A stretch of DNA of 64,000 bases from positions 3,725,001 through 3,789,000 of the forward strand of contig NZ_JABWRE020000001.1 in NCBI RefSeq assembly GCF_014268815.2, in the 5' to 3' direction. Of this stretch, positions 50,119 through 63,121 are shown in pieces (the first letter of the stretch is position 1; each line of letters opens with the position of its first letter). The notes under the pieces are model-generated. The model was not told the DNA's origin and ran no database searches. It worked only from the letters and a program-made list of their open reading frames with translations. The translations under genes and the position numbers were made by a program. Source of the stretch: Pseudomonas urmiensis (lineage in GTDB: Bacteria > Pseudomonadota > Gammaproteobacteria > Pseudomonadales > Pseudomonadaceae).

Positions 50119-50181
50119 GTGAACCTGCTGGGTGCCCTTGCTTAAGACTGGTGTTGGCCGCTTTGGGGCTGCTATGCAGCC

Positions 50182-50254
50182 CTTCGCGGGCCAGCCCGCT
50201 CCCACAGTTCTTCAGACCGACGCGGTCCCTGTGGGAGCGGGCTTGCCCGCGAAG
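50182..50254. repeat. Inverted REP pair inside the tct operon
   Basis: CTTCGCGGGCCAGCCCGCT and CTGTGGGAGCGGGCTTGCCC-type halves face each other between tctC and tctB. A stem here could stabilise the upstream message and lower the downstream one. Confidence 0.85.
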
Positions 50255-50339
50255 AGCCGCACAGCGGCTCCAGAACCTCAGCAGCAACCCGCCCAAAAGG
50301 CCGGCACCGTGCCCGAATACCCGTATCGAGGATTCCTTG

Positions 50340-50798
50340 ATGATCCTGCAACGCCTGTTCGCCCTCATTCTGCTGGCGCTCTGCGCCGCCCTGGCAGTGA
50401 TGGCCTGGCCTTACCAGGCCGCGTTTTCCTATGAACCGGTAGGCCCACGCGCCTATCCCTTGCTGATGCTCGGCCTGATGAGCCTGGGCCTGTTGTACCT
50501 GGCCATTCGCCCCACGCCCATCGTGCACAAGGACGACGAGCCACCACTGGACCGCGAAACCCTGCTCAAGATCACCGCCTGCGTGGGCCTGCTGATCGTC
50601 TTCGCCAGCACCTTCGAGGCCCTGGGCTTCGTGCTCAGCGCGATCCTGGTCGGCGTGCCGATGGCCCGTCTGTATGGCGGCCGCTGGCTGCACAGCGCGA
50701 TCGTCGTGGTGGGCATGAGCCTGTTCCTGTACTGGCTGTTCGACCGCGTGATGGACGTGCCCCTGCCCCTTGGCCTGCTTGACGTTCTGGAGAACTGA
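50340..50798 (+). CDS. tctB: TctB, small membrane subunit of the tripartite tricarboxylate transporter
   Basis: The 152-residue protein has four predicted membrane helices (about 5-22, 36-53, 77-95 and 113-140) as expected for TctB. The ATG at 50340 is chosen because it gives the hydrophobic start MILQRLFALILLALCAALAV; the frame continues upstream only through a REP element. It precedes tctA by three bases. Confidence 0.9.
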   Translation: MILQRLFALILLALCAALAVMAWPYQAAFSYEPVGPRAYPLLMLGLMSLGLLYLAIRPTPIVHKDDEPPLDRETLLKITACVGLLIVFASTFEALGFVLSAILVGVPMARLYGGRWLHSAIVVVGMSLFLYWLFDRVMDVPLPLGLLDVLEN

Positions 50799-50801
50799 CA
50801 C

Positions 50802-52316
50802 ATGGATACCTTGAGCTACCTGGGCCAGGGCTTCGGCGTCGCCCTGAGCCCTTACAACCTGGTTACCGCCCTGACCGGCACCCTGATCGGCACCGTGGTC
50901 GGCCTGCTGCCGGGCCTGGGGCCAATCAATGGCGTGGCGTTGCTGATCCCGATTGCCTTTGCCCTCGGCCTGCCACCAGAGTCGGCGCTGATCCTGCTGG
51001 CGGCGGTGTACCTGGGCTGCGAATACGGCGGACGCATCAGCTCGATCCTGCTGAACATCCCCGGTGAAGCCTCCACCGTGATGACTACCCTCGACGGCTA
51101 CCCGATGGCCCGCCAGGGCCTGGCTGGGGTGGCCTTGTCGCTGTCGGCCTGGAGTTCGTTCATCGGCGCCTTCATTGCCACCTGCGGCATGGTCCTGTTC
51201 GCGCCGCTGCTGGCGAAATGGGCGATCGCTTTTGGCCCGGCGGAATACTTCGTGTTGATGGTGTTTGCCATCGTCGCCCTCGGCGGCATGGCCGGCGACA
51301 AACCGCTGAAGACCTTTATCGCCGCCCTGATCGGCCTGTTCCTGTCGGCGGTCGGCATCGACGCCAACAGCGGTGTGTACCGCTTCACCGGTGACAGCGT
51401 GCACCTGGCCGACGGCATTCAGTTCGTGGTCCTGGTGCTTGGTTTGTTCTCCATCAGCGAGATCCTTCTGCTGCTGGAAAAAACCCACCATGGCCACCAA
51501 GCGGTCAAGGCCACCGGACGCATGCTGTTCAACTTCAAGGAAGCGGCTTCGGTGTTTGTGGTCAACATCCGCTGCGGCCTGCTTGGCTTCATCATGGGTG
51601 TGTTGCCGGGTGCCGGCGCGACCCTGGCCAGCGCGGTTGCCTACATGACCGAGAAAAAGATCGCTGGCGCCAAGGGTAATTTCGGCAAGGGCGATGCCCG
51701 TGGCCTGGCGGCCCCGGAAACCGCCATTGGCGCCTCCTGCTGCGGCGCCCTGGTACCCATGCTGACCCTCGGGGTTCCCGGCTCGGGCACCACAGCGGTG
51801 ATGATCGGCGCGCTGACCCTGTACAACATCACCCCAGGCCCGATGCTGTTCGAACAGCAGCCGGACATCGTCTGGGGCCTGATCGCGTCGTTGTTCATCG
51901 CCAACATCATGCTGGTGATCCTCAACATCCCGATGATCCGCATCTTCACCCGCATCCTCGCCGTGCCGAACTGGGCGCTGGTGCCGGTGATCGCCATCAT
52001 CACCGCGATCGGCGTATACGCCGTGCATGCCACTACCTTCGACCTGTTCCTGATGGTCGGCATCGGCATCATGGGCTACATCCTGCGCAAGCTGGACTTC
52101 CCGCTGTCGCCGATCCTGCTCGGCTTCATTCTCGGCGGCTTGATGGAGCAGAACCTGCGTCGCGCCTTGTCGATCTCCAACGGTGAGCTGGGCATTCTCT
52201 GGTCGAGCCCGATCAGCATGGGCGTGTGGGTGCTGACCATTTGCATGCTGAGCCTGCCGCTGCTGCGCATCTGGCGCCGCCGCAGCCTGCAACGTCGGGC
52301 CGTGGCGGATGCCTGA
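50802..52316 (+). CDS. tctA: TctA, large membrane subunit of the tripartite tricarboxylate transporter
   Basis: The 504-residue protein has about 12 membrane helices and the family motifs GLLPGLGPINGVALLIP, YGGRISSILLNIPGEASTVM and MGVLPGAGATLASAVAYMTE. It forms the channel for proton- or sodium-linked tricarboxylate import with TctB and TctC. Its end overlaps the AbrB-family gene by 8 bp. Confidence 0.95.
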   Translation: MDTLSYLGQGFGVALSPYNLVTALTGTLIGTVVGLLPGLGPINGVALLIPIAFALGLPPESALILLAAVYLGCEYGGRISSILLNIPGEASTVMTTLDGYPMARQGLAGVALSLSAWSSFIGAFIATCGMVLFAPLLAKWAIAFGPAEYFVLMVFAIVALGGMAGDKPLKTFIAALIGLFLSAVGIDANSGVYRFTGDSVHLADGIQFVVLVLGLFSISEILLLLEKTHHGHQAVKATGRMLFNFKEAASVFVVNIRCGLLGFIMGVLPGAGATLASAVAYMTEKKIAGAKGNFGKGDARGLAAPETAIGASCCGALVPMLTLGVPGSGTTAVMIGALTLYNITPGPMLFEQQPDIVWGLIASLFIANIMLVILNIPMIRIFTRILAVPNWALVPVIAIITAIGVYAVHATTFDLFLMVGIGIMGYILRKLDFPLSPILLGFILGGLMEQNLRRALSISNGELGILWSSPISMGVWVLTICMLSLPLLRIWRRRSLQRRAVADA

Positions 52317-53343
52317 TCGGTCGTTGCCGCTGTTCTGGGCCACCGGGCTGGTCGGGCTGGCGGGCGGGTATCTCGCCAGCCTGGTCGGCTGGCCTTTGCC
52401 ATGGATGGTCGGCTCGTTACTGGCGATCATCCTGGTGCGCTGCCTGACGCCCTGGCAACTGACGGAGATCCCCAACGGGCGCAAATGCGGCCAGTGGATC
52501 ATTGGCGTCGGCATTGGCCTGCACTTCACCCCGGCGGTGATCGAACAGGTGGCTGGGCATTTCATGTTGATCGTGTTTGGCGCGCTGTTCACTACAGTGT
52601 CGAGCGTGATCGGCGTGTGGCTGCTGCGGCGCACTGGCGAGGACCGCGCTACGGCATTCTTCGCCAGCATGCCGGGCGGTTCGGGAGAGATGGTCAACCT
52701 CGGCGCGCGCAATGGCGCGGTACTCAGCCAAGTAGCTGCGGCGCAAAGCCTGCGGGTGCTGGCGGTGGTTTTGTGCGTTCCAGCGCTGTTCAAATTTCTG
52801 GTCGGCGACGGCGTGCCGCTGAATCACGCCAACAGTGTTAGCTGGGGCTGGCTGGCGTTGATCGCACCGCTGGCCGTGCTGGTCGCCCTGGGTTGGCAGC
52901 GCCTGCGCCAGCCCAACCCCTGGCTGTTCGGGCCATTGTTGGTGGCGGCCTGCGTGAGCCTTGCCGGCAACCTGCAAATCGCCCTGCCCAATGGCGCCAG
53001 CCAGATTGGCCAGTGGTTGATCGGCAGCGGCCTGGCCTGCCATTTCAACCGGGCGTTCTTTCGCCGTGCCCCCTCGTTTTTGGGTCGTACTTTGGTTGCC
53101 AGCGCATTGAGCATGCTGATTGCCGCCAGCGCCGCCTGGGCGCTGAGCAGCCTTACCCATCTGGACTTGCGCTCACTGACGCTGGGCATGATGCCTGGCG
53201 GCATCGCCGAGATGAGCCTGACGGCCGAGACCTTGCAACTGTCGGTGCCGCTGGTGACAGCGATGCAGGTTATGCGTTTGCTGTTCGTGCTGTTTTTGGC
53301 GGAGCCGTTGTTTCGGCGTTGGAATGCCAGCCGCCAAAAGTAA
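52309..53343 (+). CDS. AbrB-family membrane protein in the tct operon
   Basis: The 344-residue protein has about ten membrane helices in two related halves (each with GxWxIGxGIGLHF or GQWLIGSGLACHF and MPGG(S/I)(G/A)EM), matching the AbrB/PF05145 family, which is named after a regulator but is in fact a membrane protein. Its 8-bp overlap with tctA shows that it belongs to the transporter operon. Whether it exports, imports or regulates is unknown. Confidence 0.85.
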   Translation: MPDRSLPLFWATGLVGLAGGYLASLVGWPLPWMVGSLLAIILVRCLTPWQLTEIPNGRKCGQWIIGVGIGLHFTPAVIEQVAGHFMLIVFGALFTTVSSVIGVWLLRRTGEDRATAFFASMPGGSGEMVNLGARNGAVLSQVAAAQSLRVLAVVLCVPALFKFLVGDGVPLNHANSVSWGWLALIAPLAVLVALGWQRLRQPNPWLFGPLLVAACVSLAGNLQIALPNGASQIGQWLIGSGLACHFNRAFFRRAPSFLGRTLVASALSMLIAASAAWALSSLTHLDLRSLTLGMMPGGIAEMSLTAETLQLSVPLVTAMQVMRLLFVLFLAEPLFRRWNASRQK

Positions 53344-53355
53344 CGGGTTTAATAC

Positions 53356-54109
53356 TCAGGAACATATAACGCCTTCTCGCACCACCCGGCTGTACCTTAC
53401 AACGCAGGGCTCGGAGCGAATCACCGTGACGCAGCAGTACCTGGGCGTTGGTTTTGTAATTGATTGTTGAGAATAGCAACGTACCTCACGAACGCACTGA
53501 TGTTGACCCTTATAGTGGTTACGGGTGAGCGTTGAAAGTTGCCTGCATTGGTCGCAGTGGCATCAGGATAGATTTCATAAAAATCTGCTTCTGCCCATTA
53601 CCTTGCGCCAGCAAGGTTGCATTGGGCAGCGTCACGACAGCAGTGCCGCCTGGGGTTTCAGTGCCGACCAGTGTACGCACTTGTGCCGCGAGCAACTCCA
53701 CCCCGTCGTAGAAGAACCTTACGAAGTGACCGGCCGCCTGCCCTTGGTAGAAGGTGAAAGTAATATCAGCATTTGCACCGCCAGCCGCATCGCGCTCGGT
53801 AATTTCATTAACCGTTGGCGAAATACGACCGCGAACTGAAACTGGGGTAAGGCTGGGGCTGACCGGTCCTCGATCAACGGGTACTGGGCCCACTGTGCGA
53901 AGATCGAGTGGCACGACCGCACGCGGTGAAGTCCCACGTGGCGTACCGTCTCGATACCATACGTATTCAACATGCAGCGTGTATGAGGACTGGCCGAGAA
54001 GCAGGGGTACTGCCAGATCTTCCCACTGCGCCGTTACGCTACGTGGATCGAAACTGGCAGAACTGCTAGGAAAAGGGCTTCTGCCCAAGTTAATCCCAAG
54101 AATCGACAC
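53356..54109 (-). pseudogene. Decayed third copy of the 783-aa beta-sandwich protein gene
   Basis: From 54109 to about 53580 the frame aligns with an internal part of the 783-aa protein at 57814-60165: for example WEDLAVPLLLGQSSYTLHVE with WDDLAVPRLGGQSFYDLNVE, and VPLDLRTVGPVPVDRGPV with VPLDLRTVGPVPIDQGPV. At 53579-53583 a run of five T (minus strand) breaks the frame; with one extra T the homology continues as FYEIYPDATATNAGNFQRSP. Homology then goes on in shortened form (AFVRYVAI, QLQNQRPGT), and the C-terminal CVVRYSR of the paralogue (CLVRYSR) is found in yet another frame before the TGA at 53356-53358. The part with NCGAQPWLGI is deleted and the N-terminal half is missing. Confidence 0.8.
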
Positions 54110-54116
54110 CCAATAA

Positions 54117-54140
54117 AAAAGGAAGCCGAAGCTTCCTTTT
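54117..54140 (-). terminator. Terminator of the autotransporter gene
   Basis: On the minus strand AAAAGGAAGC-TTCG-GCTTCCTTTTTT is a strong stem with TTCG loop and T-run, 16 bases after the stop codon. The pseudogene begins directly behind it. Confidence 0.93.
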
Positions 54141-54155
54141 CTCTAACCGCGCTTA

Positions 54156-57100
54156 TCAGAAATCGTAGCGCACACCCAGGTTCACCCCGTAAGGCTGCTC
54201 GATGTGCTTACCATTGCTGTACTCCACATCCGCATGCACACGGAACTGCTTGGACAGCGCCAGCGACACCCCCGCCCCCAGCTCAGCACGAGAACCGGAC
54301 AGGTCATTGTTGAACACGTTGTTGTTCACCTGTACTTCGTTGCGCTTGACGAACTCGTGGGCGAAAGCGGCCTTGACGTAAGGCTGGAGCATGCCGCCGC
54401 CATCGAGCGGGATAGTCTTGCCGACAGTGGTACCAACCTTGCCCAGCAGCGACCTGGCAGTATCACCTTCGGCGCGCAGACCGTTGTCGAAGCTGTAGTC
54501 CTTGCCAGCTACCACGGCTGTGGCCACCTGGGCAAAGGGCTCGATGAAGTAGCCATCGTTGAGCTTGATGTGCTTACCGGCCTCAACCGAGCCACTCAGG
54601 CCGTGGGTGTCGTAGTCGCCCTTGGTCCGGGTCGAGTCGCTCAAGCCAACCTTGGCGTTGTTCTGGTAGCGGTTGTACTTGACCACGGTGTCGACGTAGT
54701 AACCGGTCTCACGGTCCAGCCAGGTGGCGTAACCGCCCAGGTAGTAGCTGTCGACCCGGCCCGAAGTGCCATAGTCGAGGTTCAGGTCCGAGCGACTGGT
54801 ACCACCCAGCACACCCACCAGCCAGTCGGTCTCGGCCACCTGCATGTCGGCGCCCAGGCTCAAGCCATGTTGGTTTTGCTGATAGCCAGCGCCCGATGAC
54901 GCGCCGCTGACATTGTACTTGTTGCCATAGGCGCGCATCCACAAGCCGGCATCGCGGCCTTCGCTGTAGCGCAGCTCACCCATGCGGCTGCGCAGCGAGC
55001 TCAGCTCACCATAGGCCACCGTGATCGGGGTATTGAACAGGGCCATCACCGAACGGGTCATCGGCGAGATGGTGCGGGTCTCGCGGTTGAGTACCCAGTC
55101 GTTGTTTTCATCCTTGGTCATTTCATAGGAGTAGGCGCCTACATCCACTCGGTCGCGGTCGTTGAGCAGGTGGAACTGGGCTGCACCATCTTGCGTTTGC
55201 ACTAGGCGCATCGACTCCACGGTGGCCTCATTGCCGCTGCTGGCGACCAGCAAGCCGTGATTGCCACTGGAGCTGCCAGTAACGATCAGTTGATCGGTTT
55301 CACCGCTGACAAAATCACTGCCCATGACGAACGTGCCGTTGCCGGACAGGTTGTTCACCGTCAGCTCATGGAAACTTGGGGTGTCGCCGAAGGTCACTTG
55401 ACCGCCATTCAAGGCCAGGTCACCGACGCTGCTGTTTCCGTTCAGGGTCCAGTTCGAGCCGCTGGCAACGTTAGCGTTGCGCACGTTGTTCAGCGTACCC
55501 AGCAAGGTCGAGTTATTGAACAAGCTGACGTCGGCCATTGCGCCGGAGGCGGCGGTGACGTTACCGGTCATCTGGCCCTGGTCCAGCGCAAGGCTGAGCG
55601 AGCCGGTGTTGGTAACCGTGCCATTGCCCGTCAACGCCGCCTGGTTGAAGGTCGCAGTAGTGCTGCCGGCCGAATCGATGTTGCCCTGCATGGCGCCGCC
55701 GTTGAAGGACAGATCGAGCTTGCCTGCATCGGCGACCACGGCATTACCGGTCAACGTCGCTTGATTGAAGGTGCTGGTAGCAGCGCCTGCCGACTGAATA
55801 TCGCCGGCCATGCTGCCGCCGTTTAGGGTCAGATCAAGGGTGCCGGCGTCAGTGACGATCGCGTTGCCGGTCAGTGCTGATTGGCTGAGGTTCGCTGTGA
55901 CAGTACCGGCAGACTCGATGTTGCCGTTCATGCGTCCATCAGTCATGTTCAGGTTGAGTGTACCGCCGGTTGCGGCCACGGCATCGCCGGTAAGCGTCGC
56001 TTGATTGAAGGTAGCTGTGGCAGTGCCGGCAGACTCGATATCGCCAGCCATGCTGCCGCCGTTCAAGCTCATGCCAAGCGTGCCGCCGTTGAAGACCGTG
56101 GCATTACCGGTCAAGGCCGTTCGCGTGAGGTCGACCGTTGCACTGCCAGCGGAGTCGATGTTGCCGTCCATGCGCCCATCAGTCATGGTCATATTGAGCG
56201 TACCACCGGTAGCGGCAAGGGCATTGCCGCTCAGCGTCGCTTGATTGAACGTAGCCGAGGCCGTGCCGGCAGACTCGATATCGCCAGTCATGCTGCCACC
56301 GTTCACAGTCATGCCAAGCGTGCCGCCGTTGGCGACTGTGGCGTTGCCCATCAACGCAGTTCGCGCGAGGTCAACCGTTGCGCTACCAGCGGAGTCGATG
56401 TTGCCGTCCATGCGCCCATCGGTCATGGTCAGGTTGAGCGTACCACCGGTAGCAGCAACGGCATCGCCGGTCAGGGTCGATTGATTGAAGGTGGCCGTGG
56501 CATTGCCAGCAGACTCGATATTGCCGGTCATACTGCCTTCGCTGAATGACAAATTCAGCGTACCGGTATCGGTAACCACAGCGTTACCGGTCATGTTCGA
56601 CTGTTCGAAACTCACCACTGCAGCACCGGCAGAATCAATGTTGCCGTTCATGGCCGCGGTGTCAGTGAACCTAGCGGAGGCATCGCCCAGTTCGCTGACA
56701 TTCAGATTGCCGTTGAGCGTCGACTGATCGAGTGACGCATCGAGCGTCCCCGCGATCTGAAGATGGCCATCGATCTGTGAATTGTCGAAAAGCAGGTCGC
56801 CGAGGGCTTGCTCAGCAACCGTGACGCCGCCTACCAGCCGAGAGTCTTCCACTACAGCGGCAAGGTTACTGGTACGCTCCAGGTTAAGTGCGACGCCATT
56901 GTTACCGGTCAACGTCGAGCCATTGCTCACTTGCAAGGTGGCCTCTGTGCCCCCTCCCGCCGCTATTGCCGGGCCATTTACGCCTACCACGTGGGAATTA
57001 TCCAGCGTGAGTGCTGGCACGTTGACTGTCGGACTCTCTTGCGCCAGACGGATGCCTGCGGTTTGGCCAGTGATGACACTGTTAGCACTGACATCGGCAC

Positions 57101-57605
57101 TGCCTCCGAGCAGTCGCAGCCCCACCCCGGCGGGGGTGGTTGCCGTAACCTGCGAACGCTGGATGATCAGCTGACTACGGGCGGACGCCTGTGCGCCGGC
57201 AAAACCGCCACTAATCTGACTGTCGGTTATACGGGCAGTAGAGCCGATGTTCAACCGCCCCAACAAGACCCCGGTGAGATTGGTCGAGGTGATGGTGGCG
57301 TTGCCAATAGTCGCTTGACTGTCCACAAGTCTGATAGCGCTAACGGTCGGCGCCGTCGTCGTGCCGCTGAGAATGTTCAATGTAGATTGAGAGGATTGTA
57401 TTGCCCCTGTCTGCGCCCCATCGACGGTCAATACCGAAGCGGCACTCAAGTTGTAGGTATCCAGAGCAGTGGTCGCATCAATAGTCAGGCTCTGCCCAGT
57501 TAGATCCCGTGCATGCAGGGGGCTGGCAGCCAATGTCAGTAAACTGATAACACCAGCGAGGGACAAGGCAATTTGTTTTTCCGGGCGAGTTCGGCAGTTT
57601 CGCAT
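54156..57605 (-). CDS. Autotransporter with repetitive passenger domain
   Basis: The 1149-residue protein has an extended signal peptide (MRNCRTRPEKQIALSLAGVI, cleavage near HARDL, about residue 33), a passenger of roughly 800 residues predicted as beta-helix, and a C-terminal autotransporter barrel (about 880-1149) from SEGRDAGLWMRAYGNKYNVS to the final GVRYDF. It is a type Va secretion adhesin or surface protein of the pertactin/AidA kind. Residues 321-680 are nine 40-residue units such as GNIDSAGSATVDLTRTALTG followed by NATVFNGGTLGMSLNGGSMA. No RGD, protease or lipase motif is seen. It lies downstream of the two beta-sandwich genes on the same strand. Confidence 0.9.
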   Translation of the reverse strand: MRNCRTRPEKQIALSLAGVISLLTLAASPLHARDLTGQSLTIDATTALDTYNLSAASVLTVDGAQTGAIQSSQSTLNILSGTTTAPTVSAIRLVDSQATIGNATITSTNLTGVLLGRLNIGSTARITDSQISGGFAGAQASARSQLIIQRSQVTATTPAGVGLRLLGGSADVSANSVITGQTAGIRLAQESPTVNVPALTLDNSHVVGVNGPAIAAGGGTEATLQVSNGSTLTGNNGVALNLERTSNLAAVVEDSRLVGGVTVAEQALGDLLFDNSQIDGHLQIAGTLDASLDQSTLNGNLNVSELGDASARFTDTAAMNGNIDSAGAAVVSFEQSNMTGNAVVTDTGTLNLSFSEGSMTGNIESAGNATATFNQSTLTGDAVAATGGTLNLTMTDGRMDGNIDSAGSATVDLARTALMGNATVANGGTLGMTVNGGSMTGDIESAGTASATFNQATLSGNALAATGGTLNMTMTDGRMDGNIDSAGSATVDLTRTALTGNATVFNGGTLGMSLNGGSMAGDIESAGTATATFNQATLTGDAVAATGGTLNLNMTDGRMNGNIESAGTVTANLSQSALTGNAIVTDAGTLDLTLNGGSMAGDIQSAGAATSTFNQATLTGNAVVADAGKLDLSFNGGAMQGNIDSAGSTTATFNQAALTGNGTVTNTGSLSLALDQGQMTGNVTAASGAMADVSLFNNSTLLGTLNNVRNANVASGSNWTLNGNSSVGDLALNGGQVTFGDTPSFHELTVNNLSGNGTFVMGSDFVSGETDQLIVTGSSSGNHGLLVASSGNEATVESMRLVQTQDGAAQFHLLNDRDRVDVGAYSYEMTKDENNDWVLNRETRTISPMTRSVMALFNTPITVAYGELSSLRSRMGELRYSEGRDAGLWMRAYGNKYNVSGASSGAGYQQNQHGLSLGADMQVAETDWLVGVLGGTSRSDLNLDYGTSGRVDSYYLGGYATWLDRETGYYVDTVVKYNRYQNNAKVGLSDSTRTKGDYDTHGLSGSVEAGKHIKLNDGYFIEPFAQVATAVVAGKDYSFDNGLRAEGDTARSLLGKVGTTVGKTIPLDGGGMLQPYVKAAFAHEFVKRNEVQVNNNVFNNDLSGSRAELGAGVSLALSKQFRVHADVEYSNGKHIEQPYGVNLGVRYDF
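55566..56645 (-). repeat. Nine 120-bp coding repeats in the autotransporter passenger
   Basis: Nine units of exactly 40 codons each begin with G(N/D)I(E/D/Q)SAG. Units 2, 4 and 6 are alike (FNQ(S/A)TL and TGGTLN) and alternate with units 3 and 5 (DL(A/T)RTAL and NGGTLGM), so a 240-bp superunit has also been duplicated. Flanking units are more diverged. Confidence 0.93.
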
Positions 57606-57773
57606 CTTCGAGCTCCAATTTCGGGCATGAGATGTACAGAAGGCGCGACTGTCGCGCGCTCCAATGAATAAGCGCCGGCAATTTATTCTTTTGGATGGCC
57701 CTTTTCTGTAGGAAAACTCAACAACCGTATGAGTTCTTTCCTACAAGAATTGTCTCTAATCACGAAAACTAGC

Positions 57774-57802
57774 GCCGCGGTGGCCATCACAACCACCGCG
57801 GC
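57774..57802 (-). terminator. Hairpin after the 783-aa gene
   Basis: GCCGCGGTGG and CCACCGCGGC form a perfect 10-bp stem with a 9-base loop, 12 bases after the stop; TTTT follows nine bases later on the minus strand. The 208-bp gap 57606-57813 otherwise holds the presumed autotransporter promoter (AT-rich around 57690-57770). Confidence 0.7.
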
Positions 57803-57813
57803 AGTTTCAACAC

Positions 57814-60165
57814 TTAGAGGGCAGGCCCACAGACTGTATTGGTCTGCAGTCTGCTGTACCGAACAAGGCAGTCAGCGGTACTACCGAAGCCTCCGTCAGC
57901 TTTAGTCACGGTGAAACTGCTGACGAAACTACCGCTGGCAAGTGCCGGCGTTGGTCCACTGCCGACGTTGTAGAACATGATCTGGCTATACGGCACGCTG
58001 TGAAGCAGGCGGCGATCATTCACGTCAGCTTGAGTGACATCATGATCGAAGGTGTAGTGTTGATTGACCAAGGCAGTACCCAGAGCATTACTGGAGTAGG
58101 TCAGGGTAATCGTAACGATGTCACCGACAACTAAAGTGGGCTCGATAATTTCAAGATTGATACCAAGCCACGGCTGCGCCCCGCAGTTAATGATACCGGT
58201 TTGGGTAACGGGCGAACCTGGCCGACGGTTCTGCTGCTGTATGACCTGCCCGTTAGCTACGCGAGTGTCGGCAACAGCGGTATATCTAATGAACGACGTT
58301 AGCGCCAAGGTAACGAATTGAACCCTGACATCGGTAGTCGGCGAACGCTGGAAGTTATTCGCGTTGGCCGCTGTGTCATCTGCATACACTTCATAGTAGA
58401 TAGGCTTGCGCCCATTGCCGCGCGCCGTGATCACAGCTTCCGGCAACGCCACGGTAACCGTGGTTCCTACAGTCTCGTTGCCCACCAGTTCAAGTTCAGC
58501 GACTTGATCAGCTGCCGTGCCACCATCGTAGAAGAACCTGACCACATGACCGGCAGCCAGTCCTTCATAGTAGGTAAACGTGATGACGCCATCCTGGCCT
58601 GTATCACGACTATCGATCAAGTTGTCGGTCTGTGAAGCAGGACCCCGTACAACAACTGGCGTAAGCGCTGTATTCACAGGGCCTTGGTCAATCGGTACTG
58701 GACCCACCGTGCGCAGATCCAAAGGCACGATGGCGCGAGGCGAGATACCGAGATCGGCGGTCCCTCGGCGCAAGGTATATTCCACATTCAGATCATAGAA
58801 GGACTGACCGCCTAATCTAGGCACTGCCAGATCATCCCAACTGGCGATGACGGTGCGAGGGTTACTACCGTATGTGAACGTCGGCAGTGTCACGACATTA
58901 CCGGTATCTCCTGGGGGGTTGGCAGCAATGGGACGGATCAGGCGCATTTCGATCAGGTCGCCGGGCTGTGCATTGGTAATATCCGGCACCCGAATAGGCA
59001 GCCCCGTGCGGGCAATCACGCGATCCACGCGCGCAGCGGTAATGACTGGCGCAGGCAATACCCCAGGTACAGCATCCAGCCGCAGGGTGACCTGCAGAGA
59101 CTGGGAACGACCCGATCCCCAACCAGCACGATCGATCAGCTCATATTCCAATTCCTTGGGCCCCTCTCCCAGCGCAAGAAGCGCAATGGAGGGAATGGCC
59201 ACAGTAGCGTTAGGAGCAGGAGCGGGAAGGGGCAGGGGTTGAGCCTGGTCATCAATTGGCCACATCACGGCCTCATGCACGATAACCCCACCGGCCCTGA
59301 CCACAATTCGATCACCTGGCCAGGCGCCAGTGGCCAGTGGTACAGGAAACTCAATGAGCTGATTGCTCTCGAGTAGCGCTCTGGTTAGCACGACCGGTGC
59401 GGTGATGCCGGCAGGGGTTGTCGGGATACCTAGCGGACCCGGTGTTGAGCGAAAGGACGGCGGAGTCGCATCTACGAACAACGGCTGTAGGGGCGACATC
59501 GCATCGTTTAAGACAATTTCGTTAGTGACAATGTAAAAAATGTTGTTGAGCCGATCCGGGTCAAGCCAGCGGATGAAATCTGGAGTAAGCGTGAACGTGT
59601 ACTCGGTAGGACTGGTAGCCGTGGTGAGTTCAAATGGCGTACTGAATAAAAAATCTCCGTAGCGAATATTGTTGGCCGGATTATTTCGGTCCTGCCGCCC
59701 GAAGTAAATAACGTCATTAGTGCCGGCATAATCCGGAGCTTCCGTGTCCGATACCGTGGATGCCCAACGCGGCACGGTAATGGTGATTAAGCTATTTCCG
59801 CTACTATCGGCATCTTCCCACGCCGCGGCGGGAACGGTATTTTGACGTGCATCATCAACATCTGGCAAGATATTGCTGAGGGTAAAAGCCGCGGCCGCAA
59901 GAATAGAAATGTCCGCTGGCGCATCCGTACCGGCTGCGAGCCGGGTCCGCGCTTTAGGTTTTGTACTCGACGTCAATAGCTTGTCATTGGCTTCTTTTCG
60001 ACGCGCTGACATTTCTTCAGCTTCTAGTCGCTGCTCGGCCAGAGTACGCTCATTCACACTGAGCGACAGGTCCTTCTGCACCTGTCCGATCGGCGCAACA
60101 AAATCGCCTGATTCAATGATCACCAGTGTGCCATTATCGCTGGAGTCTTTCTCTTGAATAGTCAT
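57814..60165 (-). CDS. Tandem beta-sandwich (Ig-like) protein of unknown function
   Basis: The 783-residue product has no signal peptide and no membrane segment. After a charged N-terminus with a helical, possibly coiled stretch (about 30-75, ERTLAEQRLEAEEMSARRKE), the rest is rich in Val, Thr, Pro and Asp, with modules that run VLPAPVI...GLPIRVPDITNAQPGDLIEM and end in VPLDLRTVGPVPIDQGPV followed by NTALTPVVVRG. A late NCGAQPWLGI segment and a C-terminal VCGPAL are shared in type with the 645-aa neighbour. Similar modules occur in large Pseudomonas Ig-like proteins. The ATG at 60165 is preferred over one 24 codons upstream; both lack a strong ribosome-binding site. Function unknown. Confidence 0.8.
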   Translation of the reverse strand: MTIQEKDSSDNGTLVIIESGDFVAPIGQVQKDLSLSVNERTLAEQRLEAEEMSARRKEANDKLLTSSTKPKARTRLAAGTDAPADISILAAAAFTLSNILPDVDDARQNTVPAAAWEDADSSGNSLITITVPRWASTVSDTEAPDYAGTNDVIYFGRQDRNNPANNIRYGDFLFSTPFELTTATSPTEYTFTLTPDFIRWLDPDRLNNIFYIVTNEIVLNDAMSPLQPLFVDATPPSFRSTPGPLGIPTTPAGITAPVVLTRALLESNQLIEFPVPLATGAWPGDRIVVRAGGVIVHEAVMWPIDDQAQPLPLPAPAPNATVAIPSIALLALGEGPKELEYELIDRAGWGSGRSQSLQVTLRLDAVPGVLPAPVITAARVDRVIARTGLPIRVPDITNAQPGDLIEMRLIRPIAANPPGDTGNVVTLPTFTYGSNPRTVIASWDDLAVPRLGGQSFYDLNVEYTLRRGTADLGISPRAIVPLDLRTVGPVPIDQGPVNTALTPVVVRGPASQTDNLIDSRDTGQDGVITFTYYEGLAAGHVVRFFYDGGTAADQVAELELVGNETVGTTVTVALPEAVITARGNGRKPIYYEVYADDTAANANNFQRSPTTDVRVQFVTLALTSFIRYTAVADTRVANGQVIQQQNRRPGSPVTQTGIINCGAQPWLGINLEIIEPTLVVGDIVTITLTYSSNALGTALVNQHYTFDHDVTQADVNDRRLLHSVPYSQIMFYNVGSGPTPALASGSFVSSFTVTKADGGFGSTADCLVRYSRLQTNTVCGPAL

Positions 60166-60379
60166 TGTCTCTATCCCTAATCTACTAGCCGGAGTGTAAT
60201 TATCCCTACCACTGAACGCTCTACTACAACTACTCATCTTCTTTGAACACTGTAATTATCTTTCTGACATGGCCATCCGCCCTCCTCTGCTGGTCTGAGC
60301 AGATATCGATAGGTGCTACTGCATGTCATGAAACGTCTGTAACTTAGGTCGACACTAAATTGCTAACTGCCAAGCAGTG

Positions 60380-62317
60380 TTAAACCCTCACATCACCCGT
60401 TGGGGTACAGACCACAAAGCTTGCTCGCTGGAGATCGATGGGCACCCAGGACAGTGGCGCTTCAACGGTTCGGCCATCTGGCTTGGTCAACCGATAGCCG
60501 ATCCTCGCGTAGCCCGTGTAAACCCTCCCGGCTGCGGCGAACACATCAAAGATCAGCCTATTGAACTCGTTCATCTGCAAGGTCTGCGCACCCGCCTGGG
60601 TGACCACTATTGGCGCAAGATATTCCGGGGCTGGCATAAGCGGCTGGGAAGCCACCCCATCACTCTGCGTGCGGAACAACTGCCAACGCAGCTCCAGACG
60701 GTCTCTCACCTGAATGTCCGCGTGCTGCGCAACGGTCATCGTTATGCCTAGCCAGGGTTGCGTGGCACAGTTGAGAATGGGTTGGAAAGGCGTCAGTCGT
60801 GGTCTGGTCACCGTCAATCGAGTCAGTTGTGCCGTGTCAACTCTGACCGACGTCGGGTTGGCTCGTTGTCGGTTGCCGCCTATCGCCGTTCGGTAGAACA
60901 CCTGCACGGCAGGGCCATCACCGCCTTGCCTGATCACCTCGTAAGGCACCGGGGAAAAGGTAACCCTCTGTCGCGGCGGTTCATTACCGCTCACCAGGTA
61001 AGTAGCAACCACCTGTGGCAAGTTCCCCCAATGCAGCTCAAGCACCTCACCGGCGCGGGGGCTTGGGTAAAGCTCAACATCGACCATGACGGCCAGAGCG
61101 ACATCCGCAAGCCCGAGGACGTTATCCGCCGTGCGCCCCCTCACCACCACGGGAGCAAGCTGTGTGTTGACCTCTCCGGGCCCCTGCGGATCAGGCCCTG
61201 CCACGCGCAAATCGACGTTCACCTGGATGACAGGTGAAGGCGACCTTCCCGCATTTTGCACCAGCTCATAGCGCACTGACCGCAGCACTGGGCCAACGAA
61301 ACCATCGGCGGTGATCGTCGCCCAGGGCACGATCACAGTGGCAGGCCACTGCGGGGTAGCAGGTACTGGCCATAGCGCAAGCGGGCGATCATTCCAATAG
61401 ACCTGAATGCTATCGCCGGCGAGCGCCTGGGTGATTTGCGGGACTTCAACAGTTACCAACCCACGCGCCTCCTGCAGATCGATCAAACCATCGCTAGCTA
61501 ACGGTACGACTGGAGCAGGCAGCACTGGGCCGACAGTCAAACGTATCTCGACGTCCCGCGAGGTCGATTCACGACCGACGTTGCCCGAACGGTCAAGCAA
61601 CTTGCTGACCACTCGGAACTGCCCATCACGTAATAACCCGGCCGGGACAGCGATAGGAAACGGCTGCAGATTGATGTTCTCAGGCGTGACTTCGACTTCC
61701 ACGGTAGGCGTTTCGGGTGTCGCCGCTTGCCCTTGAGGGATAACAAATAACAAGGCACGGTCGCCCAAGCGTATATCGACCCAGCGATCGAGGAAAAAGA
61801 TCGCTTGCTGAGCATTGTTGGCGAGATAGGTAGGGTCAACCAGTCTCACGTTATCGTTACGCAAGGGTGCAGGATTGCCGAAGTTGGGTGCTGTTCGATC
61901 AATACGAATCTGTATGGAAGAAGACGTGCTCGGATTGCCGATGACCTCCACTTCGGCCGAGTAGCCAACCGACCACACGCCTTCACGGTTGAGCAAGTGT
62001 GCGGGCATCTGCAACTGCACCGGAAAGAAATCTACCGCGCGGGGCTCCATTTTTACTGGAAACTCTGCGACTGCCGCGCCTTCCCACAAGCAACGAAAGA
62101 TCATCTGCGGATCGGTGTAACCCTCACTCACCAACTGTGCATAGCTAGCTTCGTAATCTGCCCAACCGAGCACTTGCATCTCCAACGCAGCGCCCTGCGC
62201 GGTGAGCGGTACGGTGAAGGCACCGTTTTCATCGGCAAGCAATGCAAGCACTGCGGGCAGGTTCGGTTCAGGAAGATCCGTGGTGCCGGCCCTGGTACTT
62301 GGTAGCGGCTGCGTCAT
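60380..62317 (-). CDS. Tandem beta-sandwich (Ig-like) protein, paralogue of the 783-aa protein
   Basis: The 645-residue product is acidic and beta-rich with no signal peptide or membrane helix. Modules have the same plan as the neighbour: VLPAPVV, VTVEVPQITQALAGDSIQVY, a VPWATI strand, then VNVDLRVAGPDPQGPGEV and NTQLAPVVVRGRTADNVLGL. The late motif ILNCATQPWLGITM matches IINCGAQPWLGINL of the 783-aa protein, so the two are clear paralogues. The ATG at 62317 follows AGAGGGG. It is the first gene of a same-strand series with the 783-aa gene (214-bp gap without visible terminator) and the autotransporter. Function unknown. Confidence 0.8.
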   Translation of the reverse strand: MTQPLPSTRAGTTDLPEPNLPAVLALLADENGAFTVPLTAQGAALEMQVLGWADYEASYAQLVSEGYTDPQMIFRCLWEGAAVAEFPVKMEPRAVDFFPVQLQMPAHLLNREGVWSVGYSAEVEVIGNPSTSSSIQIRIDRTAPNFGNPAPLRNDNVRLVDPTYLANNAQQAIFFLDRWVDIRLGDRALLFVIPQGQAATPETPTVEVEVTPENINLQPFPIAVPAGLLRDGQFRVVSKLLDRSGNVGRESTSRDVEIRLTVGPVLPAPVVPLASDGLIDLQEARGLVTVEVPQITQALAGDSIQVYWNDRPLALWPVPATPQWPATVIVPWATITADGFVGPVLRSVRYELVQNAGRSPSPVIQVNVDLRVAGPDPQGPGEVNTQLAPVVVRGRTADNVLGLADVALAVMVDVELYPSPRAGEVLELHWGNLPQVVATYLVSGNEPPRQRVTFSPVPYEVIRQGGDGPAVQVFYRTAIGGNRQRANPTSVRVDTAQLTRLTVTRPRLTPFQPILNCATQPWLGITMTVAQHADIQVRDRLELRWQLFRTQSDGVASQPLMPAPEYLAPIVVTQAGAQTLQMNEFNRLIFDVFAAAGRVYTGYARIGYRLTKPDGRTVEAPLSWVPIDLQRASFVVCTPTGDVRV

Positions 62318-62428: not shown

Positions 62429-63121
62429 TCAAAGCGGCCGCAGCGCCCAATCGATCGGGCTCATGCCATGCTGCTGCAAAAAGCCATTAGCCCGACTGAA
62501 ATGGCCACAGCCAAAGAACCCACGATAGGCCGACAGCGGCGATGGATGCACCGACTTGAGCACCAGGTGCTTGGTGCCGTCGATCAGCTTTTGCTTGCTC
62601 TGGGCATGGGCGCCCCACAGCAGAAACACCACGTTGGGGCACTGCTCGCTGACCAACTGAATGATTCGATCAGTAAACAACTCCCAACCTTTTTTCGCAT
62701 GCGAAGCGGCATTGGCGCGCTCTACGGTCATGGTGGTGTTGAGCAACAACACGCCCTGATCGGCCCAGCTCTGCAGATAGCCATGATTAGGAATGGGCAG
62801 GTTCAAATCACGCTGCAGTTCTTTGTAGATGTTGACCAGCGAAGGCGGCGTAGCAATGCCCGGCTGCACCGAGAAACACAAACCGTGGGCCTGCCCCGGG
62901 CCGTGGTACGGGTCCTGGCCGAGAATGACCACTTTGACCTGGTTCAGCGGCGTCGAATTCAGCGCATTGAAAATCAGCGGACCCGGCGGATAGATCTCCT
63001 TGCCAGCGGCGTACTCCTGACGGAGGAATTCGCGCAGCTGGTGCATGTAGGGCTGGTCGAATTCAGCGCGTAGCGCCTCCTTCCAGCTGGGTTCGAGCTT
63101 GATGCGGTCGTCGTCGGTCAT
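62429..63121 (-). CDS. ung: Uracil-DNA glycosylase
   Basis: The 230-residue family 1 enzyme removes uracil from DNA. It has the water-activating motif [13 protein letters not shown] (Asp 70) and the DNA-binding loop [17 protein letters not shown]. The ATG at 63121 gives the family length; an in-frame codon six residues upstream is also possible. It marks the return to core genes after the accessory block. Confidence 0.96.

Follow-up and report, generated by a model that had tools for sequence, protein, structure and literature searches.

Conserved pairing of multi-domain Ig-like proteins with a classical autotransporter: a candidate surface cassette between ung and tct in Pseudomonas urmiensis

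Type V systems and the ung/tct block

Intimin and invasin (type Ve secretion) combine a barrel and an array of immunoglobulin-like (Ig-like) domains in one surface protein, and two-partner secretion (type Vb) uses two adjacent genes, one of which encodes an outer-membrane barrel. Among the type Va autotransporters, those resembling pertactin, BrkA and Vag8 are, to our knowledge, one-gene systems. Here we analyzed a stretch of 64,000 nucleotides from Pseudomonas urmiensis (positions 3,725,001 to 3,789,000 of contig NZ_JABWRE020000001.1; hereafter the window), which carries a block composed of two related genes, B1 and B2, an autotransporter gene (AT) and a decayed third gene of the B type, B3. 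As described in an earlier reading made from the letters alone (the sequence-only reading), the four elements are all on the minus strand between ung and the tct locus, and their coordinates were confirmed (Table 1).

The AT itself belongs to the type Va class, possessing both the barrel and a pertactin-type passenger stem, but is usually located beside multi-Ig proteins. In contrast to intimin and invasin, the Ig arrays are encoded by separate genes, the barrel is C-terminal and the passenger is of the pertactin type. The block also differs from two-partner secretion: above the Pfam cut-offs, AT matched only the Autotransporter and Pertactin families and no TpsB-type family (POTRA plus FhaC barrel), and no signal peptide was recognised in B. 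Unlike the giant Ig-like adhesins (BapA/SiiE, and GhpA of Aureispira), the B proteins stand alone with five domains in 650-800 amino acids (aa) next to an AT. Neither BapA_N nor the LapA retention module of the BapA/LapA-type adhesins of type 1 secretion systems was found in B1 or B2 by Pfam and NCBIfam at E<=1. As for polymorphic toxins and contact-dependent inhibition, no toxin, enzyme or defence domain was found in B1, B2 or the B3 remnant by Pfam, NCBIfam, PADLOC and PHROGs. The components all belong to known kinds; what appears new, as judged from the open-access literature searched, is the consistent association of free-standing Ig arrays with an autotransporter of type Va.

We interpret the block as one copy of an old cassette for a fast-evolving, two-component surface recognition or adhesion system, and assign a probability of roughly 45% to this interpretation. 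AT would display a beta-helix passenger on the outer membrane, and the B proteins, as rods of five Ig-like domains, would be exported without the usual Sec signal peptide and act with the AT passenger, probably bound to it, as the fast-changing recognition part. A bolder reading, to which we give a low probability, is a new two-gene type V display: multi-Ig B proteins without a signal peptide would work in trans for a classical autotransporter, either as its cargo or as a recognition part that can be exchanged, so that two proteins do what intimin/invasin does in one. The display would be common in Pseudomonas and present in two further lineages. If B is extracellular, a route without a signal peptide poses an export problem; if B binds AT, the type V arrangement is one not found in the portions of the open-access literature covered by our search.

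Pairing of the B and autotransporter genes in Pseudomonas and beyond

B2 as a single query matched in 44 of 149 Pseudomonas genomes. The profiles built from 31 B proteins and 20 ATs matched in 112 and 114 of these genomes, respectively; both were found in 107 genomes and neither in 30, with B only in 5 and AT only in 7 (Fisher p 1e-19, species relatedness being ignored). Among the matches listed, 145 of the 150 B genes lie within 6 kb of a listed AT, 111 of these on the same strand, against a rough expectation of 0.2% for a chance neighbour within this distance. Likewise, 95 of the 117 listed ATs (those with an E of ~1e-176 or lower; weaker AT matches were excluded) are within 6 kb of a listed B. 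All of the other 22 were inspected, and 17 of them are adjoined by weaker B-like open reading frames (ORFs). The 100 loci that we fetched were hand-chosen from the match lists, not drawn at random, and include all 22 ATs without a listed B. AT was present in 99 of them, and a B-like ORF was located within 3 kb in 95 of the 99, ORFs being chosen by our own rule on length and the guanine plus cytosine (GC) content at third codon positions (GC3), not by a gene finder. Among the four AT loci without such an ORF, L105 is at a contig end and L155 within 2.4 kb of one; the other two are considered below.

Altogether, the pairing of the B and AT genes is conserved. The link to the autotransporter, for which the sequence-only reading had gene position as its only ground, is strongly supported by the co-occurrence of both profiles elsewhere, as well as by a Yersinia plasmid and genome G690 (see below). 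No description of the pairing was found in the portions of the open-access literature searched, PMC7020563, PMC4509608 and PMC3596284 included, and portions of the latter two term Pseudomonas autotransporters of unclear function or uncharacterised (PMC4509608, PMC3596284). For many autotransporters of environmental Pseudomonas, no function is known. One class of these is linked here to a partner family (107 of the 149 genomes sampled), and therefore the function of such autotransporters becomes a direct two-gene question.

By our own grouping, the 100 loci represent five chromosomal settings (ung/tct, a setting whose neighbours are of the Rhs type or related to it, and a further three) plus six others, and the AT lineages track the setting (11 label changes against 61.6 after shuffling). 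The order AT-distal B, AT-proximal B, AT is found at ung and in two other settings, the Rhs-type setting has one B, then AT and a short B, and in the fifth setting an AT on the opposite strand lies between the B genes. A full-length B on the same strand is located directly upstream of 60 of the 102 ATs, with a median gap of ~190 bp. Downstream of AT (n=99), we found a short same-strand B in 24 cases, an opposite-strand giant in 16, another B-type ORF in 21 and no such ORF within 1.5 kb in 38. The position of the B3 remnant corresponds to that of the short same-strand B downstream of AT elsewhere. One scanned locus (L080) adjoins an adhesin of the LapA/BapA type. It is improbable in our view that B and AT are unrelated surface genes merely co-travelling in variable sites. 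The ung/tct site is indeed variable and linkage is enough for the co-divergence described below, but the pairing is kept across five chromosomal settings and two distant lineages, the position of the B subfamilies is conserved, and B-like ORFs accompany AT at 95 of 99 loci.

No match was detected in 368 other Gammaproteobacteria (369 with the window's genome). Among 398 phylum-wide genomes, 14 matched, namely the window's own, five more Pseudomonas, G690 of another class, which matched strongly, and seven genomes with weak matches, in six cases to frames >3000 aa. Within the family (119 genomes of 19 genera), only six Pseudomonas genomes, the window's own included, matched. In G690, a YD-repeat-like ORF (by eye) is accompanied by three B ORFs, one partial, one full and one short, and by an AT on the opposite strand. 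Plasmid NZ_MT039225.1 of Yersinia frederiksenii AGR_49 (L076, 68391-77076) carries in a row a B (636 aa by our ORF pick), a giant relative of 1198 aa that contains RCC1 repeats, and an AT; the annotation lists the first two as hypothetical proteins and the third as an autotransporter. In the FastTree phylogeny, which contains several long branches, the full B of G690 nests in a clade whose members come for the most part from Pseudomonas loci of the Rhs type, and B proteins from other settings are the sister group of the Yersinia B; these placements are as expected under transfer. Plasmid searches returned one record for B1, one for a second B and none for AT at E 1e-60, and B1 was unmatched in the phage search.

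The AbrB-family gene of the tct locus neighbours ung in convergent orientation, and the two are located on the same contig <30 kb apart in 126 of the 149 Pseudomonas genomes; these 126 were usable for counting the site, eight weaker second AbrB copies being excluded by hand. The gap between the two genes was <400 bp in 89 genomes, in which the site is empty; it measured 0.4-4 kb in another 25 and 6.5-22 kb in the remaining 12. With its gap of 9.1 kb, the window is one of these 12 occupied sites, at all of which B and AT matches adjoin ung. The block is accessory at the ung/tct site, as the sequence-only reading had claimed: it is located there in just 12 of 126 genomes, although the B family as a whole is widespread among the relatives (112 of 149 genomes). 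In G037 and G130, which are outside the 126-genome count, the block is next to ung with AbrB out of reach. At the empty ung/tct sites of relatives (L172, L173 and L174), REP-like inverted repeats were seen by eye between the two convergent genes.

Domain architecture and location of the B proteins

Self-alignment of B yielded five tandem repeats of ~120 aa. B1 and B2 found no match in Pfam and NCBIfam (both at E<=1) or PADLOC, and just one chance-level row was obtained from PHROGs, for B2. A hidden Markov model (HMM) of the B repeat matched 32 stretches in L166 (3e-75 for the whole protein) and also L168 (6e-18 for the best single repeat), in which Pfam recognises 28 and 10 Big_13 stretches, respectively; the overlap of HMM and Big_13 stretches was checkable by coordinates once (686-773 against 711-773 in L166). 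Thus, the B proteins are Ig-like arrays related to the repeats of Big_13-rich giant adhesin-like proteins. We term them related to Big_13, not members of it, because B1 and B2 have no Pfam match at E<=1. The AlphaFold model of B (pLDDT, the predicted local distance difference test score, of 89) has an Ig/FNIII-like fold, and its best structural matches include fragments of the GhpA and SiiE adhesins mixed with many eukaryotic FNIII/Ig chains, the search barely covering the fifth domain. Against the sequences of solved structures, the B profile found none, and B2 alone and a single repeat gave only chance-level rows, a weak SiiE row among them. The sequence-only reading knew of no family with a nameable function for these proteins; they can now be placed as Ig-like domain arrays. 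Elsewhere in the window's genome (C1, about 2217890-2220847; L169, 7891-10848), there is a 985-aa Ig-array protein with 7 B-type repeat stretches plus Big_2, and no AT of the cassette family was present in the 18 kb read there.

The tree of 126 B proteins was inferred by FastTree only. These 126, which also underlie the counts of N-terminal features, cysteines and B genes directly upstream of AT, matched the profile strongly and are 550-850 aa in length; split proteins and shorter ones were excluded. AT-proximal and AT-distal B proteins were separated in this tree with 7 label changes against 42.7 after shuffling (0 of 500 shuffles as low), and the 12 B1 and 13 B2 sequences at ung formed one well-supported clade each. 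The AT-proximal and AT-distal proteins represent old subfamilies, and the paralogues of the window are accordingly not the outcome of a recent duplication. The paralogy of B1 and B2 and the decay of a third copy were borne out. The B3 remnant is of the B2 type. One of its frames is 57% identical to B2 residues 459-616 and a second is 41% identical to residues 614-679; a third holds an 8-residue trace of the C-terminus that is insignificant alone (E 0.83), and the first 458 residues of B2 were unmatched.

In the last domain, all 100 sequences extending to the column of the C-terminal cysteine have it, and 98 of 126 have the first cysteine; both columns are filled (with a small tolerance) in 54 of 60 AT-proximal B proteins. 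Such a pair suits an oxidising compartment, in which it may form a disulfide. The N-terminal tail of the AT-proximal B proteins is more basic than that of other B proteins (net charge +1.6 against -1.0, p 3e-4), and a QxRxxY-like motif, picked post hoc, occurs in 19 of 60 AT-proximal and 3 of 66 other B proteins. Possibly, this tail is a targeting or docking signal. Examples of the basic tail or the motif are found in L080, L089, L094, L096 and G690 (L165).

Pfam was applied to eight giant relatives, five of which exceed the cut-offs for a beta-propeller, RCC1 repeats or Big_2/3_5/6. A profile of seven giants matches the S-layer YVTN propeller (E 5e-27) and aligns with B across most of the B length (probability 99.3). 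Propeller, RCC1 and Big modules are usual in extracellular proteins, and an outside role of B is favoured for this reason. The giants of L038, L093, L135, L086 and L076 are ~1200-2000 aa in length and consist of a B-type Ig array and a C-terminal propeller, RCC1 or Big part; those of L045, L059 and L071 have no Pfam domain above the cut-off. If B instead stayed in the cytoplasm and served the AT producer as an immunity-like protective or assembly partner, the unrecognised signal peptide, the basic tail of AT-proximal B and the several paralogues and remnants next to a surface gene would be accommodated. This seems hardly likely, as an extracellular location is indicated by the Ig arrays, the Cys pair and those giants that contain a propeller or Big domains.

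A large Rhs-type ORF (cluster c11) is located near the cassette in 14 of the 100 loci, and the one member scanned has the Rhs core domain (TIGR03696) and RHS repeats. Some Rhs-type loci also encode ~900-aa proteins outside known families; those scanned gave no family and chance-level solved-structure rows, and are unrelated to B. Together with the YD-repeat-like ORF (by eye) at the same place in G690, these neighbours would fit B proteins being released weapons or toxin-complex-like parts, comparable to some Rhs proteins, freed by lysis or another route, with AT as a dock or delivery aid. We consider this rather unlikely, since no toxin or enzyme domain is found in B1, B2 or the remnant, the Rhs-type cluster is missing in 86 of 100 loci and the block in the window is flanked by ung and tct. 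Proteins of ~740-980 aa with a GWGxx-like motif near the N-terminus, some of them cut by the end of the stretch, were observed at six Rhs-type loci (L046, L051, L053, L079, L081 and L100); those scanned fall into no known family.

The AT of the window matches Pertactin (E 2.4e-28) and Autotransporter (E 1e-54) in Pfam, with the PF03797 barrel at the C-terminus. Of the solved structures, those of Vag8 (E 1e-81), the BrkA barrel (E 5e-57) and pertactin (E 2e-33) are closest to the AT-family profile. Its N-terminus is hydrophobic by eye, and 78 of 102 relatives reach a crude hydropathy proxy for a signal peptide, versus 12 of 126 B N-termini. The window AT is 1149 aa long with 240-bp repeats in the passenger; 17 of 19 other aligned ATs are ~730-790 aa.

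Divergence and composition of the cassette

Sequence identities were compared for 19 of 21 loci, namely those having ung, AT and two B genes. Where Ung is 80-85% identical (69 locus pairs), the mean identity is 34% for B1, 25% for B2, 41% for the AT passenger and 55% for the barrel. In five close pairs, the ratio of nonsynonymous to synonymous substitution rates (dN/dS) was 0.12-0.24 for B1, 0.14-0.57 for B2, 0.06-0.19 for AT and 0.01-0.09 for ung. These values indicate that the B and AT genes are maintained by purifying selection yet fast-changing; with the low B identities, they uphold the fast evolution suggested by the sequence-only reading. For the L060/L061 pair, dS is ~10x as high in B as in ung, which points to the import of an allele.

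The divergence of B is correlated with that of the passenger given the barrel (partial r 0.57) and little with that of the barrel given the passenger (0.14; 59 of 60 AT-B pairs). In the ung set, B correlates at 0.54-0.66 with AT or its passenger and at ~0 with the barrel, and passenger-side B repeats the pattern (0.63 for passenger against 0.01 for barrel). Barrel-side B tracks the barrel (0.53 against 0.29 for the passenger; a small set including fragments). As barrel-side B follows the barrel, linkage with recombination suffices, and the co-divergence is not evidence of binding. Co-evolution of B with the passenger, at first suggested by these values, was rejected as their explanation.

The behaviour of barrel-side B is one of several observations that weigh against the cassette interpretation. 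Two AT loci, L139 and L153, were inspected over their whole length and are genuine exceptions without B; B occurs without AT in 5 of 149 genomes and AT without B in 7, and the chromosomal settings differ in gene order. Both cysteine columns are filled in just 33 of the 66 other B proteins. The signal-peptide proxy is passed by 12 of 126 B proteins and failed by 24 of 102 ATs, and is therefore crude. The other giants comprise one with a propeller match below the cut-off and two without a Pfam match. We infer the export of B, its binding to AT, the disulfide and the target, as well as the surface or contact-related role that the sequence-only reading suggested for the system; for export, this also counts on the unfavourable side.

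The GC content is 0.588 in B1, 0.548 in B2, 0.558 in the remnant and 0.597 in AT, against 0.64 in two tct genes; ung has 0.585. GC3 is 0.64 in B1, 0.55 in B2, 0.53 in the remnant and 0.72 in AT, and 0.81 and 0.87 in the tct genes. Low GC3, in line with the lower GC that the sequence-only reading noticed, is not peculiar to this strain: B has a lower GC3 than the conserved neighbour ORFs in 81 of 81 comparable loci (mean difference -0.16), and AT in 76 of 96 (mean -0.05). With GC3 low across the family, low GC as a mark of recent foreign DNA is not supported here. Both the GC below the neighbours and the site being empty in 89 of 126 genomes would suit a recent foreign low-GC island in this P. 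urmiensis strain, but the family-wide low GC3 and the old clades to which B1 and B2 at ung each belong make it very unlikely, and this candidate was rejected. Altogether, family-wide low GC3 and ancient B subfamilies support neither a recent foreign origin nor a recent duplication.

Table 1. Features of the B/AT block and its flanks (window coordinates)
Feature	Coordinates	Strand	Description
B1	60380..62317	-	AT-distal subfamily; 645 aa; five Ig-like domains; signal peptide not recognised
B1 fifth Ig-like domain	60398..60799	-	two cysteines near the domain ends (residues 517, 637)
B2	57814..60237	-	AT-proximal subfamily; 807 aa; five Ig-like domains
AT	54156..57605	-	1149 aa; classical monomeric autotransporter; pertactin/Vag8-class passenger and C-terminal beta-barrel
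240-bp tandem repeats in AT passenger	55738..56652	-	~3.8 copies; 120-bp sub-period
B3	53383..54109 (about)	-	decayed B2-type remnant; pieces in different frames
ung	62429..63115	-	conserved flank of occupied site; longest ORF to 63139 from TTG
AbrB-family gene of tct locus	52309..53343	+	conserved flank; convergent with ung

The length of B2 in Table 1 is counted from the first ATG; an internal ATG at ~60165 (manual count) would give 783 aa. Scans for promoters and terminators returned only chance-level signals. On the minus strand, an 873-aa open frame (50172-52793) lies antisense to tctA; it probably only shadows the coding strand, which is rich in GC.

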